DNA of 64,000 nucleotides from Streptomyces roseirectus (GTDB lineage Bacteria; Actinomycetota; Actinomycetes; Streptomycetales; Streptomycetaceae), in NCBI RefSeq assembly GCF_014489635.1, contig NZ_CP060828.1, positions 3,634,001 to 3,698,000 of the forward strand, read 5' to 3'. Positions 13,637 to 22,603 of this stretch are shown one piece after another; the first letter of the stretch is position 1, and each line of letters begins with the position of its first letter. Under the pieces are notes generated by a model, which saw only the letters and a program-made list of their open reading frames with translations, had not been told where the DNA came from and did not search any database. The translations under genes were made by a program, and so were the position numbers.

Positions 13637-13813
13637 CTACGACGTGGCGCGCAACGCACGCAGGGAACGCAACCCGATGAGCCCGATGGCCGTCCCCAAT
13701 ACGAAGGAAACGACGGCGAGGGTCAGGTGCACCCAGAAGTAGGCCGTGGGATGTCCGTCCTCGAAGGCGAGACCACTGCCGTCCTTGATCAGGTTCTTGA
13801 CGAAAGTGGTCCA
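13637..13813 (-). pseudogene. SCO4848-family gene, 3' part, cut by insertion
   Basis: The minus strand encodes the equivalent of residues 22 to the end of the SCO4848-type membrane protein (WTTFVKNLIKDGSGLAF, then GHPTAYFWVHLTLAVVSF and GTAIGLIGLRSLRA), ending in TAG at 13637. Upstream of 13813 the similarity stops at once and no family N-terminus follows. The missing residues 1-25 lie on the same strand at 22426-22500, about 8.6 kb away. The two pieces together make one gene. The intact copy at 13908-14150 is similar but not identical and runs the other way. The open frame continues upstream into unrelated DNA, so a hybrid product cannot be excluded. Confidence 0.85.
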
Positions 13814-13907
13814 TACGCAAGTAACCAGTACCCCCACCATCCCCTCGTGGAGGCGCTGAGCGGATACTGACCTGGCACGACGCCCCGCCCACAGAGGACG
13901 CACCCCG

Positions 13908-14150
13908 ATGAAGCTCAGCCGCCGCACCTCCTGGTTCCTGCTCGCCTTCGGCGCCTGGTCTTGGGTGATCTGGGTGACCTTCATCAAGAATCTCTTCGAG
14001 GACGCCAGCGGGTTGGCGTTCGACGACGGCAACCCCACGGCGTACTTCTGGGTCCACCTCGCGTTGGCCATCACGTCGTTCATCCTAGGTACTGCCGTGG
14101 GCATGATCGGCCTGCGAGGGGTGCGGGCTGCCCAACGAGCGACCGAGTAA
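13908..14150 (+). CDS. SCO4848 family membrane protein, intact copy
   Basis: This 80-residue protein has two membrane helices (about 8-24 and 48-70) joined by a conserved loop (FIKNLFEDASGLAFDDGNPT). MKLSRRTSWFLLAFG matches the family N-terminus. CAGAGGAC lies 8-10 bp upstream of the ATG. It lies just inside the left border of the insertion that cut the older copy, in inverted orientation, and could replace its function. A very strong hairpin follows. The function of the family is unknown; it is usually next to the D-Ala-D-Ala carboxypeptidase gene, which suggests a cell-envelope role. Confidence 0.9.
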   Translation: MKLSRRTSWFLLAFGAWSWVIWVTFIKNLFEDASGLAFDDGNPTAYFWVHLALAITSFILGTAVGMIGLRGVRAAQRATE

Positions 14151-15252: not shown

Positions 15253-15270
15253 TGGAGCGTACGGCCCGCG

Positions 15271-16470
15271 TCAGGGCCTCGGCAGCGGCAGGTCGGGCAT
15301 CTGCGGGTGCCGCAGGTGCTGCCCGCCGCCGTAGACGTGCAGCGTGAACGTCTCCGGTCCCGGCCTGCCGGCCGTGTCGTAGGCGTCCAGGACGCGCTCG
15401 ATCCGTTCCCACAGCTTCACCGGGCCGCCCTCGCGCACGGCCCATCCGTGGCTTGCGGGGGTGAGGGTGGCGGCGGAGCCGGTGACGACGTCGACCAGGT
15501 GCACCACTTCGCCGACGGTCGTCATCTGCGCGTCGGGCACAGCGCTTTGGGCGAGGAAGCGCAGGTGGAACGCTTCCTCGGTGGCGGCCGCGATCCGCTC
15601 CGGGCTGTGCGGGGTGGCGCGGGGCTTGTCGGGCAGGCCCGCGGCCCAGTGGGCGGGGTTGCCGAACACCGGCGCCGCGTGCGTACGCGCTGACATGAAC
15701 GACACGGTGCCGCCGAGCAGTCGGCCCTCGGCGGTGCCGTCCTCGGCCACCGTCAGCAGGACGCGGGCGTATCCGTAGAGCCAGCCCGACAGGGTGAGCA
15801 GGATCTTCCCGCCCGGCCGTACTTGCGCGAGCAGAGCGGGCGGGATCGCGCGGAAGGAGCAGGCGGCCACGATCCGGTCGAACGATGCTTCGGGCCAGTA
15901 CCCGTACAGTCCGTCCGCCACCGCCAGGGTCGGGGTGTAGCCCAGGCCGTACAGCGCGCTCGCCGCCTGCTCCAGTCGGCGGCCGTCGACCTCGATCGAC
16001 GTGACGTCGGCGGAGCCGAGGCGTTCGCAGGCGAGCGCGGTCGAGTAGCCGGTCCCGGTGCCGATCTCCAGCACCGTGTGCCCGTCGGTGACCTCGGCGT
16101 CCGCCCACATGCGCACGACGAGCGAGGGCAGCGTGGATGAGGAGGTGGGGGCTCCGCCGTGGCGTACGACGGGGGCCTTCCAGTCGGGTTCCTCACCGTC
16201 GAACTGCGTGATCAGCGTGGTGTCGGAGTACGCGGCGGCCAGCCAGCGGCCGTAATCGAGTTCGGCGGTGACCGGCTCCCACACCGTCAGGCCCTGCTCG
16301 TCACGCTCATCGGCGGGCAGGTAGAAGCCGGGCACGAACCGGTGCCTGGGCACCGCCTCGACGGCCTGGCGCCAGGCCGGATCGGCGAGGACGCCGTCGG
16401 CAGCGAGGCCCTTGGCCATCGCCTCGCGCAGGCGGACGGAGTCGGTCTCAAGGTCGGCGGGCATACTCAT
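15271..16470 (-). CDS. tgmC: PIMT-like methyltransferase of ATP-grasp peptide system (TgmC type)
   Basis: The enzyme has 399 residues. The ATG at 16470 overlaps the stop of the ligase gene (ATGA) and GGAAGGAGG lies upstream. It resembles protein-L-isoaspartate O-methyltransferase with an extended C-terminal part: PRHRFVPGFYLP near residue 35, the TSSSTLPSLVVRMW block, and the SAM motif HTVLEIGTGTGYS. In known graspetide systems such PIMT homologues methylate an Asp of the cyclised peptide, which then closes to an aspartimide (succinimide). The precursor here ends in an Asp-rich tail, which fits. The action on that peptide is inferred. Confidence 0.87.
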   Translation of the reverse strand: MSMPADLETDSVRLREAMAKGLAADGVLADPAWRQAVEAVPRHRFVPGFYLPADERDEQGLTVWEPVTAELDYGRWLAAAYSDTTLITQFDGEEPDWKAPVVRHGGAPTSSSTLPSLVVRMWADAEVTDGHTVLEIGTGTGYSTALACERLGSADVTSIEVDGRRLEQAASALYGLGYTPTLAVADGLYGYWPEASFDRIVAACSFRAIPPALLAQVRPGGKILLTLSGWLYGYARVLLTVAEDGTAEGRLLGGTVSFMSARTHAAPVFGNPAHWAAGLPDKPRATPHSPERIAAATEEAFHLRFLAQSAVPDAQMTTVGEVVHLVDVVTGSAATLTPASHGWAVREGGPVKLWERIERVLDAYDTAGRPGPETFTLHVYGGGQHLRHPQMPDLPLPRP

Positions 16471-17447
16471 CTCGGCCCCGCCTCCTTCCTGCTCAGGATG
16501 TCGGCGAATGCCTCGGTGATGGTCGGCGCGTCGGGTAGCCAGCCCCACTGCCCGTTGCTGTTGCACTCGATCGCCGTCCAGTGTTCCGGGGCATCTCCGT
16601 CGCCGGTCAGGGCGAAGTCGAAGCAGCCGAAGACCAGGCCGAACGAGGCCAGGTAGCTGTGCAGCGCGGCCTCGATGGAGGCAGGCACGGTGATGGGGGC
16701 GTGGATCAGGTCGTCCCAGTTGCCGCGGCGCCAGTCCAAGGCGCCGTCCGGGGCGGCGATCTGTTGGGCGAAGACACGGCGGCCGACCACGGTGACCCGC
16801 ACGTCCCCGGTCTTGGGGATCTCGGCCTGGAACAGGTGGGCGGTCACCGCGAGGGAGTCATCGAAGGTCTCGGGATCAATGCGCTGGGCCCAGATCGCGC
16901 CGGTGTGCCCGTCTTCGTCCCGGGGCAGGCCACGGAATGTCTTGTAGATGACGGGGCCGTGTTCGGCGGCGAACTTGCGGGCCGCCTCGACGTCGTTGGT
17001 GACCAGGGTCGGCGGGATCGACAGCCCGAGCTCGGTGAACCTCTGCAACTGGGCGGGCTTGAAGTCCGCGCGGGTCACCGCTGCCGGGTGGTTGACGTAG
17101 ACGGCGCCGTGCAGGGTGTTCAGGATGCCGCCGAGCCCGTGCCTCGCCTCAGCGGCGGCGAACTCCCGCTGTTGCGGGGGCAGATGCTGATACCGGGCGG
17201 CGTAGGGGGTGGGGCGGCGGTAGTAGACCGCCGCCACCTCCCCCAGCTCCACCTCCCGGCTCGCCGTACGCAGTCGCCCGCCCCACGAGGGCGCCCCCGC
17301 CTCGATGCGGGCCCCGAAGGTCAGCCCGGTGCCGATATCGGCGGGGTCGACGCGTACGACGGGCACCTCACGCTCGTTCAGCGCGGCGATGACCCAGTCC
17401 GCGGTGACGTCTTCCAGCGCGGTGACGACCAGGACGGTGGAGGCCAT
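16467..17447 (-). CDS. tgmB: ATP-grasp peptide ligase (graspetide synthetase, TgmB type)
   Basis: This 326-residue ATP-grasp enzyme would form side-chain ester or amide links (Ser/Thr/Lys to Asp/Glu) in the precursor encoded just upstream. Visible blocks include TLVTNDVEAARKFAAEHGPVI with the ATP-binding GPVIYKTF strand, AVTAHLFQAEIPKTGDVRVTVVG, and FGCFDFALTGDG ... AIECNSNGQWGW with the metal-binding E and N residues. It begins 3 bp after the precursor gene and overlaps the methyltransferase gene by 4 bp, giving a tight tgmA-tgmB-tgmC operon. Confidence 0.92.
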   Translation of the reverse strand: MASTVLVVTALEDVTADWVIAALNEREVPVVRVDPADIGTGLTFGARIEAGAPSWGGRLRTASREVELGEVAAVYYRRPTPYAARYQHLPPQQREFAAAEARHGLGGILNTLHGAVYVNHPAAVTRADFKPAQLQRFTELGLSIPPTLVTNDVEAARKFAAEHGPVIYKTFRGLPRDEDGHTGAIWAQRIDPETFDDSLAVTAHLFQAEIPKTGDVRVTVVGRRVFAQQIAAPDGALDWRRGNWDDLIHAPITVPASIEAALHSYLASFGLVFGCFDFALTGDGDAPEHWTAIECNSNGQWGWLPDAPTITEAFADILSRKEAGPR

Positions 17448-17450
17448 CGG

Positions 17451-17717
17451 TCAGTCCGACTCGTAGTCGGTGGTGTTGTCGTCCTGGGTCTGCGGCTGCG
17501 GGTTCTGCCCGTCCCCGCCCCCGGACATCGACGCCGTGCCGGTCGTCTTCGACGTGCCGTGCTTGCCCATCTCCACGACCTGGCCGGCGGCGTCGGTGTA
17601 GCGGGCGGTCTGCGTGGCCCCGTCCAGCACCACCGTGGCGTACGACGGCGGGCCGATGGGCAGCCGGTCGGTGACCAGCCCCATCGCCCACGGTGCCTGA
17701 GCGGTCGGTGTAGCCAT
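17451..17717 (-). CDS. tgmA: Graspetide precursor peptide (ATP-grasp-modified RiPP)
   Basis: This is an 88-residue precursor. The ATG at 17717 has AAAGGGTGAG upstream. The leader has the family motif APWAMGLVTDRLP and then SYATVVLDGATQTARY and VVEMGKHGTSKTTGT. The C-terminal part is Gly/Gln/Pro-rich and ends in QTQDDNTTDYESD, which offers Thr/Ser donors and Asp/Glu acceptors for ester cross-links. The small size and conserved arrangement with the ligase and methyltransferase leave little doubt. The exact core boundary and ring pattern cannot be read from sequence. Confidence 0.92.
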   Translation of the reverse strand: MATPTAQAPWAMGLVTDRLPIGPPSYATVVLDGATQTARYTDAAGQVVEMGKHGTSKTTGTASMSGGGDGQNPQPQTQDDNTTDYESD

Positions 17718-17874
17718 GTGCTCACCCTTTCCCCACTGGATGAAGCGGAAGCCGATCAGCCCCCGCTTGAGCAGAATCGATGCCCACCTATGCTCCTGAC
17801 CAGTACCGTAAGGGTCGCGAACCGTGGCGAAAATGCCACGCTCCGTATACGCAGGCGGGGAGGGCGAGACAGTG

Positions 17875-19242
17875 ATGGCCAGCAGATCCGGCAACCCGCA
17901 CCTGGCGCTGTGGACCGCGGCGAGCGGCCTGTCCCACGGGGAGATCGCCCGCCGGATCGCCGTGGCGGGCAAAGCCCGAGGCCACCGGCAGATCGCCCCC
18001 GACGCCACCCGTATCCGACGCTGGATCGACGGCGAGAAGCCCCGCCCGCCGGTCCCCGCCCTGCTCGCCGACGTCCTCTCGGAAGCGGTCGGCCAGCCGC
18101 TCACTGCCGGTGATCTCGGCCTGACGGGTACCGGTGTGGTGCTGGATAGCATCCAGCTCCCGCTGCTGACCGAAGCAGCGGCCCAGGCCCTGGCCGGATG
18201 GACGCAGATGGACTTCATGAACCGCCGCGATACCCTCAAGCTCGCCGTCGGCGCCCCGCTGATCCTCGCCGCCGAACGGATGCTCGGCGGCACTGCCCGC
18301 GCACTGAACCATGACCACAAGGGCTTCGACGCCGACACCGTCACCGCCCTCGAAGAGGTGACCGCCTTCTTCACCAAGGCCGACGCCTCCAAGGGCGGCG
18401 GCCTGTACCGCTCGGCGATCGTCGCCCAGCTCGACGAGGTCGCCCGCCGTATCCAGGACGGCGTCCCACCGAAGCTGAAGGCCCGAGTGTTCGCGGCGAC
18501 CGCCGACCTCGCGGCGCTCGCGGGCTGGGTGAGCCATGACGCCGGCCGCTACGGCATCGCCCAGCGCCTGTGGAGTTACGGCACGTACGCCGCTGGCGAG
18601 GCCGGGCAGCGCGACCGCGGGGTGGAGATCGTCACCCGCATGTCACACCAGATGATCTACCTCGGGCACCCCCAGGACGCCCTCGGCCTGCTCGGCGCCG
18701 CCGCCAAGAAGGCCACACTGCCCGCGACGAAGGCGCTGGTCTCCTCGCAGACCGGCCGGGTGCACGCGGCCCTCGGCGACGAGCGAGCGGCCCAGAGGCA
18801 CCTCGGCACCGCCGACGAGCTCCTGGCGGACGGTCTCGGCGACGACGTCCCCGAATGGGTCGCGTACTTCGACGCGGCCGAGCACGCCGGCGCCCGAGCG
18901 GTCTCCGCCCGCGACCTCGCCGGACTCGGCCGTGGCCGCAGGGCCGCGAGCGTCCACTTCGAGGACGCCCTCAAGCTCAGGAAGCCCGGCTTCGACCGGG
19001 TCCGCGTCATGGACCGCGTCGGCCTGGCCGCCGCGCTCTTCGACGAGGGCGAGGTCGAGCAGGGCGCCGCTGCGGCCCACCAGGCGCTCGACGACGCGGC
19101 CCGCATCGACTCCACCCTCGTCGTGTCCCGGCTCAACACGCTGCTGGACGCGGCCCGCCCGTACAAGACCGCCGCGATCGACGACGTACGGACTCGGGCA
19201 AAAGAACTGGCCGCCGCCCGGCCGACCACGATCGCGGCCTGA
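17875..19242 (+). CDS. TPR-containing transcriptional regulator of the graspetide locus
   Basis: The protein has 455 residues from the ATG at 17875 (GTG at 17872 is also possible; GGGGAGGG lies upstream). The first ~80 residues contain an HTH-like region (GLSHGEIARRIAVAGKARGH ... RIRRWIDGEKPRPPVPALLA). The rest is an all-helical repeat domain typical of TPR regulators. It is related to the regulator at 52985 beside the lasso cluster: both share R-x-W-x-x-G-x-x-P-R-x-PVP-x-LLADVLS. It is divergent from tgmA across a 157-bp gap and first in a plus-strand gene row, so it probably controls both directions. Confidence 0.88.
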   Translation: MASRSGNPHLALWTAASGLSHGEIARRIAVAGKARGHRQIAPDATRIRRWIDGEKPRPPVPALLADVLSEAVGQPLTAGDLGLTGTGVVLDSIQLPLLTEAAAQALAGWTQMDFMNRRDTLKLAVGAPLILAAERMLGGTARALNHDHKGFDADTVTALEEVTAFFTKADASKGGGLYRSAIVAQLDEVARRIQDGVPPKLKARVFAATADLAALAGWVSHDAGRYGIAQRLWSYGTYAAGEAGQRDRGVEIVTRMSHQMIYLGHPQDALGLLGAAAKKATLPATKALVSSQTGRVHAALGDERAAQRHLGTADELLADGLGDDVPEWVAYFDAAEHAGARAVSARDLAGLGRGRRAASVHFEDALKLRKPGFDRVRVMDRVGLAAALFDEGEVEQGAAAAHQALDDAARIDSTLVVSRLNTLLDAARPYKTAAIDDVRTRAKELAAARPTTIAA

Positions 19243-19255
19243 GAGTATCGAGCGC

Positions 19256-19546
19256 ATGGGCAAGCACCGCCGACCCGGACCGTCGAACCAGCCGTCGCGC
19301 GCCGTGCCGCGCGTGGACGCCGACGACCCACTCGCCGCCTACAACAAACGGCGCCGCCCCCCGATGGACCTTTCCCGCCGTCACTGGCCCGTGCACGGCG
19401 GCGCCAGCCACCTCCGGCCCGACGAGCCGCGCGTCCTGGAGGAGTGGACCGGGTTCGCGTATGAGGTGGTCGGCACCGCTCCCAGCCTCGCGGCCGCCCA
19501 GGAATGGGTGAACGAACTCCAGATCGGCGACGACACCGCAGCCTGA
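19256..19546 (+). CDS. Small DUF6087-like protein
   Basis: This 96-residue protein starts at 19256, 13 bp after the regulator gene. It is basic at the N-terminus, then has DPLAAYNKRRRPPMDLSRRH, WPVHGGASHLRPDEPR and a C-terminal AAAQEWVNEL helix, resembling what I recall of DUF6087. Its stop overlaps the radical SAM start (TGATG), which implies coupled translation. Function unknown; it could be a partner or substrate-binding accessory of the radical SAM enzyme. Confidence 0.75.
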   Translation: MGKHRRPGPSNQPSRAVPRVDADDPLAAYNKRRRPPMDLSRRHWPVHGGASHLRPDEPRVLEEWTGFAYEVVGTAPSLAAAQEWVNELQIGDDTAA

Positions 19547-20496
19547 TGCCCCGTGACGAAAGGCATCCCGGTCCACGGCCAGTGCGATGGCCTAGCGAAC
19601 GCCAGCCACCGCAGCCTCGACCGGACACGTGCCGAACATGTCCGGCACGCAAAGCGCCTGGTCAAGCCAGCTTCTCGCGAGAGACGGTCGGAAAACTGGA
19701 GATCACCGGGAAGTGCCAACTGACGTGCACGCACTGCCTGTCGGAGTCCAGCCCGCAGGCCACGCACGGCACGATGGCCCCCGAGGACTGGCGTGCGGTC
19801 ATCGTCGACGCCGCCGCGCTCGGCATCCGTTCCGTCCAGCTCATCGGGGGCGAACCGACCGTTCACCCCAACTGGCGGGAGTTCACCGACCTCGGGCTGT
19901 CGCTCGGGCTGCACGTCGAGATCTACAGCAACTTGTTTCACGTCGCGCCCGGCTGGTGGGAGGTGTTCGAGCGGGACGGCGTGACGCTGGCGACGAGTTA
20001 CTACAGCGACGACCCGGCCGAACACGACAAGATCACTGGCCGCGACGGGAGTTACGCCCGTACTCGGTGCAACATCTGGGAAGCCATCACGCGGGGGATC
20101 ACGCTCCGGGCGGGGATCGTGGACATTCTTCCGGGGCAGCGCGTCACAGAAGCCGTCGCGGAGTTGGAATCCATGGGCGTGACGGCCATCAAAACGGACC
20201 GGGTTCGCGCCGTGGGCCGTGCCGCGCTCCCCGGCACCGCACCGTCGCTCGACGAACTGTGCGGCAGGTGCACCCGAGGACGCGCGGCCGTTCTCCCGAA
20301 CGGGGACCTCACCGGATGCGTGCTGTCGCGCGGCTTCCCGGCGGGCAACGTCCGGGAAACCCGGCTCGCCAACCTGCTGGGCGGGAAGGCGTGGCATGAC
20401 CTGGCGGCACGCATCCCGGCGCCCCGGGCCGCATGCCCGCCGGACGACTCCAACGACTGCACCCCTGCCAGCACGGATTCGTGCGACCCGCAGTGA
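19546..20496 (+). CDS. Radical SAM protein with SPASM-like C-terminus
   Basis: The enzyme has 316 residues and starts at 19546 in a TGATG overlap. The radical SAM motif is C57-x3-C61-x2-C64 in ITGKCQLTCTHCLSES, followed by IRSVQLIGGEPTVHPNW with the GGEP block. Near the C-terminus, CGRCTRGRAAVLPNGDLTGC looks like a SPASM/twitch-type auxiliary cluster site, and three more cysteines follow. A further CRTC lies before the core (C29, C32). SPASM enzymes often modify peptides, which suits the RiPP context, but its substrate is not known and no dedicated precursor is obvious beside it. Confidence 0.9.
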   Translation: MPRDERHPGPRPVRWPSERQPPQPRPDTCRTCPARKAPGQASFSRETVGKLEITGKCQLTCTHCLSESSPQATHGTMAPEDWRAVIVDAAALGIRSVQLIGGEPTVHPNWREFTDLGLSLGLHVEIYSNLFHVAPGWWEVFERDGVTLATSYYSDDPAEHDKITGRDGSYARTRCNIWEAITRGITLRAGIVDILPGQRVTEAVAELESMGVTAIKTDRVRAVGRAALPGTAPSLDELCGRCTRGRAAVLPNGDLTGCVLSRGFPAGNVRETRLANLLGGKAWHDLAARIPAPRAACPPDDSNDCTPASTDSCDPQ

Positions 20497-20522
20497 CCGG
20501 CAGGACCGCTGAAAGGACCTCG

Positions 20523-21668
20523 ATGGACTGGGAAGAGCACGCGTCACGGCTCGCGTCGCACGTCACTGATCCCGATTCCCGCTGGGTGGGCGCGGTCGCG
20601 CACACCCCCCGTCACGAACTCGTCCCCCGCTGGTGGGAGCGCGCGGGCGAGAAATGGCAGCTCCGTGACGGGCCGTCCGACCATGCGGCATGGATGCGCG
20701 CCGCGTACGCGGACCGTTCGCTGATCATCCGAGTCGGCTCGCTCCACGCGGACCGCGCGCACCCCGGTGACCAGCCGCAGGGGCGTACCACTTCGTCCGC
20801 CACGCTGCCGACCCTGGTGGTGCGGATGCTGCGGCACGGCCGTCTCGGGGACGGGCTGTCGCTGCTGGACCTCGGGACCGGGGCCGGTGGGCTCGCCGCG
20901 TACGCCTGTCACCGGCTCGGGGACCACTGCGTGACCAGCCTGGACATTGACCCCTACCTGGTCAGCGTGGCCGGTAAGCGGCTCGCCCGCATGGGCCACC
21001 ACCCCAAGATGGTCACAGCGGACGCCACCGAGTGGGTACCGGGCACGTACGACCGGATCGTGGCCACCGTCGCGCTCTCCCCCGGTCCCGGACTCCGGGC
21101 CGTGGTCGGGGCACTGGAACCCGGCGGGCGCCTCGTGACGACGCTCGCCCGTACCTGCCTGCTCGTCACCGGCTGGAAAGACCGGTCGGGGGACGTCGTG
21201 GGTCGGGTGGAACGGGACATGGCCGGTTTCATGTCGACCCGCTCCGGCAGCGACTTCCCGCCCGCCCAAACCGAGTTGTTCGCCCTCGCCCGCGACGCGG
21301 AAGGGGAACACCGCAGCAGCGGACGCTATCCCGTGGTGGACATCGAGAACGCGTGGGAACTGCGCTCCATGCTCGAAGTCACCACGCCCGGTGTGGAGAT
21401 CGACTACCGGTCCGACGGGGACAGTCGCACCGCCTACCTGATCCACCCGGACGGTTCATGGGCCCGCGCATCCGCCGAACGGCTCGACGACCCGCCGGAA
21501 GTGCACCAAAGCGGCCCTCAGCGCCTGTGGGACGCCCTGGAACGCATCCGGTTCCAACTCAACACCGAGGGCTCGTTGCCACTGCTCGGCGCGAACCTCC
21601 GGATCACCCCCGACGGGGTGTGTCACCTGTCGCGCGGACGCTGGCAGACGTCCTTGGGCGCGCAGTAG
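20523..21668 (+). CDS. Second PIMT-like methyltransferase
   Basis: This 381-residue protein starts at the ATG at 20523 after GAAAGGACC. It shares its plan with the TgmC-type enzyme at 15271: HTPRHELVPRWW near the start, the TTSSATLPTLVVRML block, the SAM motif LSLLDLGTGAGGLA and a long C-terminal extension. The two are clearly related but far from identical. It follows the radical SAM gene by 26 bp. It may act on the same peptide at another residue, or on a product of the radical SAM enzyme; both are guesses. Confidence 0.88.
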   Translation: MDWEEHASRLASHVTDPDSRWVGAVAHTPRHELVPRWWERAGEKWQLRDGPSDHAAWMRAAYADRSLIIRVGSLHADRAHPGDQPQGRTTSSATLPTLVVRMLRHGRLGDGLSLLDLGTGAGGLAAYACHRLGDHCVTSLDIDPYLVSVAGKRLARMGHHPKMVTADATEWVPGTYDRIVATVALSPGPGLRAVVGALEPGGRLVTTLARTCLLVTGWKDRSGDVVGRVERDMAGFMSTRSGSDFPPAQTELFALARDAEGEHRSSGRYPVVDIENAWELRSMLEVTTPGVEIDYRSDGDSRTAYLIHPDGSWARASAERLDDPPEVHQSGPQRLWDALERIRFQLNTEGSLPLLGANLRITPDGVCHLSRGRWQTSLGAQ

Positions 21669-22335: not shown

Positions 22336-22500
22336 CTACCCGGTCGGGCCGAGCCCCAGGAGGTGGACATGAGGTCTCACCTGCTCCTTTAGCGTGATCT
22401 TGCGGCAAGTGGCCGGCGTGTTATGGAAGGTGACCCGAATGACCCAGCTCCACACCCCGAAGGCGAGCAGGAACCAGGAGAGGGGGCGGGTGAGCTTCAT
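22336..22500 (-). pseudogene. SCO4848-family gene, 5' part, cut by insertion
   Basis: The minus-strand ATG at 22500 starts MKLTRPLSWFLLAFG and follows the family for 25 residues (to VTF at 22426), then runs into unrelated sequence and stops at 22336 after 54 residues. The remaining family residues are found at 13637-13813 on the same strand. The native start region, between this gene and the divergent carboxypeptidase gene, is retained, so a truncated hydrophobic peptide may still be made. Confidence 0.85.
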
Positions 22501-22603
22501 GGGCCCAGTATCGCCGTCGGGTGTCCGGTTCCAGGAGGCGGGGGACGGGCGCGCTGGGAGTCCGGCGGGGGTGGCGGGTACGTTCTGGGGCGTGCCCGCA
22601 CCC

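Follow-up and report, generated by a model that had tools for sequence, protein, structure and literature searches.

Whether the adjoining genes at positions 15271 to 21668 of a 64,000-nucleotide stretch of Streptomyces roseirectus DNA (contig NZ_CP060828.1, positions 3,634,001 to 3,698,000, referred to here as the window) make up one hybrid pathway or two separate ones is the question raised by this locus. The minus strand encodes the graspetide genes tgmA, tgmB and tgmC, and the divergent plus strand encodes a regulator, a DUF6087 protein, a radical SAM (rSAM) enzyme and a second methyltransferase of the protein aspartate methyltransferase (PAMT) type, called MT2 below. The first-pass annotation of this DNA had suggested a single peptide with ester cross-links, an aspartimide and a radical-type modification, or else two peptide pathways under one regulator. 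In the current analysis the block is very probably made up of two independent modification cassettes standing side by side, a graspetide unit and an rSAM-PAMT pair. The features of the block are the following.

15271..16470, minus strand: tgmC, graspetide methyltransferase similar to PAMT and to protein isoaspartate methyltransferase (PIMT), 399 residues (TIGR04188, 433 bits, cut-off 380)
16467..17447, minus strand: tgmB, ATP-grasp ribosomal peptide maturase, 326 residues (TIGR04187, 398 bits, cut-off 350)
17451..17717, minus strand: tgmA, precursor peptide of 88 residues, C-terminal part ...GTSKTTGTASMSGGGDGQNPQPQTQDDNTTDYESD (TIGR04186, 68 bits, and PF14408, 80 bits, both cut-offs 25)
17824..19242, plus strand: NsdA-family regulator with tetratricopeptide repeat (TPR)-like structure (NF053720, 291 bits, cut-off 75)
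19256..19546, plus strand: DUF6087 protein of 96 residues, closing the conserved graspetide unit on the right (PF19565, 38 bits, cut-off 27; gene order matches loci L156 and L157)
19546..19695, no strand assigned: junction region, 5' part of the 316-residue rSAM frame, without homology to other rSAMs and without coding constraint
19696..20496, plus strand: rSAM, SPASM/twitch-like, without the usual N-terminus; CxxxCxxC at residues 57-64 of the 316-residue frame
20434..20493, plus strand: C-terminal tail of the rSAM, CPPDDSNDCTPASTDSCDPQ, with Asp-Ser between two cysteines, a candidate PAMT target
20523..21668, plus strand: MT2, second PAMT-type methyltransferase, 381 residues (TIGR04188, 211 bits, under the cut-off of 380), in the rSAM-paired branch of the methyltransferase tree

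The rSAM-MT2 pair is found elsewhere on its own. Relatives of the rSAM are encoded in 34 of 150 genomes of the genus (E up to 1e-20) and in 17 of 147 genomes of a draw from the order (E up to 1e-25; some of these genomes are also in the genus set), and in a phylum draw none of 149 genomes besides the window's own has a match. Sixty-nine stretches were examined, of which 57 have an rSAM match above 100 bits; 32 of these 57 have MT2 at most 2.5 kb downstream on the same strand and are counted as pairs. The neighbourhood survey proposed earlier for the rSAM and tgmB gives just three co-occurrences in the 32 pair stretches, a lower bound, namely the window, its closest relative G101 (L045) and plasmid NBC_00080 (L042), two of which represent one lineage; the other 29 have no tgmB match. 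The pairwise distances of rSAM and MT2 are correlated (r 0.70 over 31 pairs, a value reached in 0 of 5000 permutations).

The graspetide unit likewise occurs on its own. A search of plasmid DNA has revealed the order tgmC-tgmB-tgmA / regulator-DUF6087 on plasmid NBC_00470 (85% identity, the match ending at window position 19594) and on plasmid NBC_00015 (81% identity, ending at 19517), and the 14.3-kb stretches around these two units contain no rSAM or MT2 match. NBC_00015 also carries an rSAM-MT2 pair, more than 500 kb away from its graspetide unit. DUF6087 relatives are present in 23 of 150 Streptomyces genomes, and among the 25 loci of the genus search, taken with 1.5-kb flanks, an rSAM stands next to DUF6087 in two, the window and G101. 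The tgmB gene is far more common, being found in 120 of the 150 genus genomes (TIGR04187, E up to 1e-20).

The two cassettes meet at a sharp junction. At the nucleotide level the window resembles none of the 25 other DUF6087 loci beyond 19604, and its resemblance to L046 and L047, the nearest separate rSAM genes, sets in only at 19694-19696; the first 50 codons of the rSAM frame are therefore foreign to the rSAM. Compared with G101, these codons differ at 6, 5 and 5 of 50 sites by codon position, which indicates no coding constraint, as against 41, 20 and 96 of about 265 in the rest of the frame, a normal coding bias. Typical relatives of the rSAM are about 287 residues long and start with MTT...SLELEITGKCQ, a start that is missing in the window. 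As the junction codons are without constraint, the N-terminus usual for this rSAM has been lost, and the rSAM gene of the first-pass annotation is corrected accordingly: the frame is rSAM from residue 51, and codons 1-50 are not rSAM sequence.

In the lineage of this junction the pair is probably decaying. The rSAM of G101 is frameshifted ahead of its tail and its MT2 is split between two frames, with tgmA, tgmB and tgmC open over nearly the whole length. Streptomyces sp. F63 (L011) has the same junction, after which come an rSAM that has undergone a large internal deletion and an MT2 that is interrupted, as judged by eye; the 20 kb covered there contain no tgm match.

The gene assignments of the block are largely those proposed earlier. 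All three minus-strand genes exceed the curated family cut-offs, which bears out a complete tgmA-tgmB-tgmC operon, and the divergent genes match the families named for them, the SPASM match of the rSAM being partial (PF04055, 41 bits, cut-off 29.5; PF13186, 22.9 bits, cut-off 21.5). The rSAM fails the SPASM motif, which we take to be CX9-15GX4C ... CX2CX5CX3C ... C; the first half is there (C239, C242, C258), and the counterpart of the second half is C297-x7-C305-x7-C313. MT2 aligns with TIGR04188 over nearly its full length, yet its score falls short of the cut-off, and it shares 29% identity with TgmC over 373 aligned columns. Both methyltransferases do have the TSSxTLPxLVVRM block described before (TgmC TSSSTLPSLVVRM, MT2 TSSATLPTLVVRM). 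The PIMT-type domain of MT2 (PF01135) ends at residue 208 of 381, leaving a C-terminal extension of more than 100 residues. The regulator may start at 17875 instead of 17824 according to the gene caller. Spacing on the plus strand is tight, with the DUF6087 stop overlapping an ATG and a gap of 26 nt between rSAM and MT2, and transcription of the four plus-strand genes as one unit is plausible from this layout.

A tree of 53 methyltransferase rows, which carries a long-branch warning, above all for L082, places 31 of the 32 rSAM-linked enzymes in one strongly supported branch of 43 rows. The TgmC of the window falls outside this branch, which also contains enzymes adjacent to tgmB (L107 within it, L110-L112 as its sister group) and eight with neither partner. 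Clusters of the form tgmA-tgmB-MT2 are encoded on plasmids NBC_00891 and NBC_01136 and on a plasmid of S. zaomyceticus, with precursors containing PT(V/I)PDGS, and the precursors of L110-L112 end in NGDG(S/K)(S/K)PGSDSGTDLY. As far as these sequences tell, MT2-type enzymes have changed partner between ATP-grasp ligases and rSAMs, in line with the account by Lee et al. (PMC10787088), in the part of that paper available here, of PAMTs spreading between unrelated pathways. Intact MT2 genes are also found apart from an rSAM: those of L103, L104 and L162 (S. cattleyicolor pSCAT) are open and retain coding bias with no intact rSAM adjoining, and those of G068 and G079 are intact with no rSAM match found in the genome, G079 being merely 78% complete.

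Several further loci of this enzyme type have been observed. In L107, L110-L112, L158, L159 and L161 an MT2-type PAMT lies directly 3' of tgmB, with precursor ends of the PDGSTTNPPPLDEGPKD type and the NGDGSSPGSDSGTDLY type, and G101, some 50 kb away from its own block, encodes a further tgmB with an MT2-type PAMT (L111). DUF6087 also follows tgmA-tgmB-MT2 in L107 (7250-7567) and L161 (4206-4532), with PF19565 scores of 109 and 106 bits, so that this family accompanies graspetide clusters of more than one type. In L117 the rSAM belongs to the unpaired branch, and about 0.8-1 kb downstream of it lies a TgmC-like PAMT that falls outside the MT2 branch. Five near-full-length matches to the TIGR04188 profile occur in the genome of the window, two of them exceeding the cut-off, so that several PAMT-like genes are not unusual for the strain; near 9.26 Mb (G000:C1:9254022-9265769; L006, L007, L083) two partial PAMT-like matches lie in open frames of 951 and 437 residues.

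A single integrated pathway, in which TgmA would receive esters, an aspartimide and the modifications of the rSAM and the second PAMT, has to be weighed against two side-by-side cassettes. Several observations speak for it and against separate cassettes. The genes are tightly spaced on one strand, and the region 15263-21667 as a whole is common to the window's genome (G000) and G101 at 83% identity with unmatched flanks; since the two share it in different surroundings, the joined 6.4-kb block has been inherited and has persisted, or has moved, as a unit at least once. Plasmid NBC_00080 has tgmABC about 4 kb from its pair in a similar divergent layout, and the count of three tgmB co-occurrences is a lower bound because contig ends shorten some of the stretches. 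Within the window MT2 and the rSAM frame from residue 51 are open, so that both may still be functional, and action of MT2 on a graspetide is chemically plausible since enzymes of its type partner tgmB elsewhere. The pathway is still highly improbable in view of the pair stretches that lack tgmB, the graspetide units that lack the pair and the broken pair beside open tgmABC genes in G101; moreover the window, G101 and NBC_00015 do not differ in the C-terminal part of TgmA, though the NBC_00015 unit has no pair. The single triply modified peptide is accordingly given up. From the second suggestion of the first-pass annotation the side-by-side pathways survive, and a working shared regulator is unsupported. 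It had also named, as an observation that would count against a joint product, regular occurrence of the pair alone with another small substrate gene; half of this holds, the pair being regularly free of tgm genes in the stretches surveyed, and no small substrate gene was found with it.

For the two cassettes the following course is suggested. The first is an ordinary actinobacterial graspetide unit. By analogy with characterised systems TgmB would form side-chain esters on TgmA, and TgmC would methylate a core Asp, at a guess that of the Asp-Gly in GGGDGQN, leading to an aspartimide or isoaspartate, with the cassette under the divergent NsdA-family regulator. The second cassette is an rSAM + PAMT pair like those of Lee et al. 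2023 and would have its own substrate. A common ancestor with G101 would have acquired the joined form by recombination, at a point between about 19,604 and 19,694, with loss of the usual first 20 or so residues of the rSAM at the junction; the pair is broken in G101 and F63, the two other loci seen with this junction. In general the pair would combine an rSAM of peptide-maturase fold with a PAMT acting on an Asp before Ser or Gly in a cysteine-closed loop, for which the best visible candidate, put forward tentatively, is the C-terminus of the rSAM itself.

The rSAM+PAMT pair as such has been published before. In 2023 Lee et al. (PMC10787088, available in part) described 249 two-gene clusters of this kind for which no precursor or substrate gene was found nearby. 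No further paper on the pair was found beyond it, judging mostly by titles; the available text of one review (PMC13001092) contains neither 'radical' nor 'SPASM', and neither it nor the available text of another (PMC11285071) takes the pair further. SPASM rSAMs near graspetide ATP-grasp genes have been published for other lineages (PMC8939145, PMC13097080, both available in part). Around the 32 pairs no precursor-like family recurs among six-frame open stretches of at least 25 residues within 1.6 kb upstream and 1.5 kb downstream (less at contig ends), as compared by BLAST at E 1e-4 and 35 bits, a cut-off that very short or divergent peptides and some low-complexity queries could escape. The most recurrent family is a regulator-like gene (10 of 32, XRE-type by eye), followed by an ATPase-like gene (5 of 32, by eye) and a small protein (4 of 32).

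The C-terminal tail of the rSAM offers a lead on the substrate. The pattern C-x-[PS]-x(0-3)-D-[SGT]-x(0-7)-C is present in 30 of 32 paired rSAMs and in 2 of 22 unpaired ones (L077, L130), three of the 57 rSAM rows having been left out for short or odd matches. The two paired exceptions are frameshifted (L045) or truncated (L060), so that all 30 intact paired tails match; an earlier, looser pattern gave 29 of 32 paired and 3 of 25 unpaired. No significance can be claimed for the link between tail and partner, because the rSAM tree provides only one (the starred branches) to three independent comparisons. Among 120 database homologues, taken regardless of MT2 pairing and overlapping with the loci, 115 match a wider pattern that allows Gln after Asp and Gly for the second Cys as in P0051; the other five are truncated, frameshifted or failed a length check, and two of them do show the loop. 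In these 115, the Asp is followed by Ser in 102, Gly in 8, Thr in 3 and Gln in 2. Over the six frames of the window the CPPDDSNDCTPASTDSCDPQ tail is the sole match to the tail pattern. Five tails (L043, L044, L114, L126, L128) have a second, upstream Cys-Pro-x-Glu-Asp-Ser-Cys module (e.g. CTPDEDSCMPSPG); the tail of L043, for instance, reads CTPDEDSCMPSPG...CTPADSNDC. A stand-alone tail peptide was considered in S. cattleyicolor pSCAT and G022, which keep MT2 and a remnant of the rSAM end, next to a transposase gene (PF05598, PF01609) in G022; these are read as relics and not as peptide genes.

The Asp-Ser/Gly loop of the tail is thus a candidate methyltransferase target, against which common descent, methyltransferases without an rSAM and a possible function in iron-sulfur binding weigh. 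The full proposal, a possible but doubtful one, is that the rSAM would itself be the substrate of the pair, the PAMT turning the Asp of the cysteine-closed loop into aspartimide or isoaspartate and the tail serving as a built-in core. It is reminiscent of the borosins, in which the enzyme carries its own core. The tail is disfavoured as sole substrate because MT2 genes without an rSAM (L103, L104, L162) stay open with coding bias. Its predicted disorder gives no support either: residues 296-316 of the window rSAM have predicted local distance difference test (pLDDT) scores below 50, and so does most of the tail of the unpaired relative L070.

We give an even chance to a different explanation, that the substrate of the pair is a peptide or protein from another part of the genome and the tail Asp is structural, for example a ligand of an auxiliary iron-sulfur cluster like Asp319 of PqqE. 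The auxiliary cluster of PqqE is held by three Cys plus Asp, and Asp can ligate such a cluster (PMC5715301, PMC8326336, as far as these papers were available). Most paired tails have just three cysteines, both loop cysteines are invariant in an alignment of 78 rows that includes unpaired relatives, and a substrate elsewhere agrees with the precursor search around the 32 pairs and with the intact MT2 of G068 and G079. A ligand role would not require Ser, Gly, Thr or Gln after the Asp, and the paired rSAM of L115, with only two tail cysteines, keeps the Cys-Pro-Asp-Ser-Cys loop; in L057, L061 and L126 the third tail cysteine is missing and an extra one stands ahead of the loop. In the structure model the tail does not form an ordered domain for cluster binding, though neither does that of the unpaired relative. 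Asp-Ser and Asp-Gly sites isomerise easily, and MT2 with its PIMT-type domain might instead be a dedicated repair enzyme that returns isoaspartate to Asp in the labile loop of the rSAM. A PIMT bearing a C-terminal extension is known from Thermotoga maritima (PMC13001092, available in part). This role is improbable, as relatives of the same branch adjoin tgmB, where characterised PAMTs form aspartimide (PMC10787088, PMC13001092, in the parts available), and MT2 genes without an rSAM persist.

A defence system was also considered and rejected, the PADLOC matches to viperin and mads_2 spanning merely part of the rSAM or the methyltransferase. To the left of the block (window 13637-14150) lie two inverted copies of a small membrane protein gene, presumably SCO4848-like, and to the right (about 22426-22503) a partial inverted copy with 81% identity over 78 bp. 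They adjoin an apparent D-Ala-D-Ala carboxypeptidase gene and may mark island borders.

The apparent new hybrid pathway is thereby removed, the locus very probably combining two cassettes of known kinds that recombination brought together in a single lineage, and the tail loop, which tracks the presence of the methyltransferase, is a new lead on the published question of the rSAM-PAMT substrate. The graspetide unit resembles the group 13 graspetides (graspimiditides: fuscimiditide, amycolimiditide, SsfA; TgmABC), with precursor, ATP-grasp ligase and PAMT above the curated cut-offs and Asp-Gly present in the precursor's C-terminal part; no sequence difference from them was seen, the NsdA regulator and DUF6087 also standing beside relatives. 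Its TgmB scores 27.7 against the grasp-with-spasm ATP-grasp family TIGR04192, far below the cut-off of 230, and does not belong there. The tgmA-tgmB-MT2 clusters, such as that of NBC_00891, share with the window a PAMT of the MT2 branch (50% identity to the window MT2) and differ in the ATP-grasp partner, in a precursor ending PTIPDGSTTNPPPLDEGPKD and in having no rSAM annotated in 7 kb. From the SkfB sactisynthase and other SPASM/twitch peptide maturases the rSAM family differs by its Cys-Pro-rich C-terminal tail and by having no precursor gene found; its relatives have about 20 residues ahead of the core, which would leave no room for a leader-binding domain.

Type II pamtides (cysimiditides) likewise have a conserved Asp in a cysteine-held loop and a PAMT partner, but their zinc ribbon CxxCxGxGDCxxCxGxG, as given in the available part of PMC10787088, is not matched by the rSAM tails, which read C-x-P-x(0-3)-D-[SGT]-...-C-x-P. 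The closest counterparts of the pair are the rSAM-PAMT clusters of Lee et al. 2023 (PMC10787088), alike in the adjacent genes, the C-terminal extension of the PAMT and the lack of a nearby precursor in the part of the paper available; section 2.3, in that part, does not discuss the rSAM tail. Unlike the clusters described there, the pair in the window is joined to a graspetide unit and its rSAM has lost the N-terminus.

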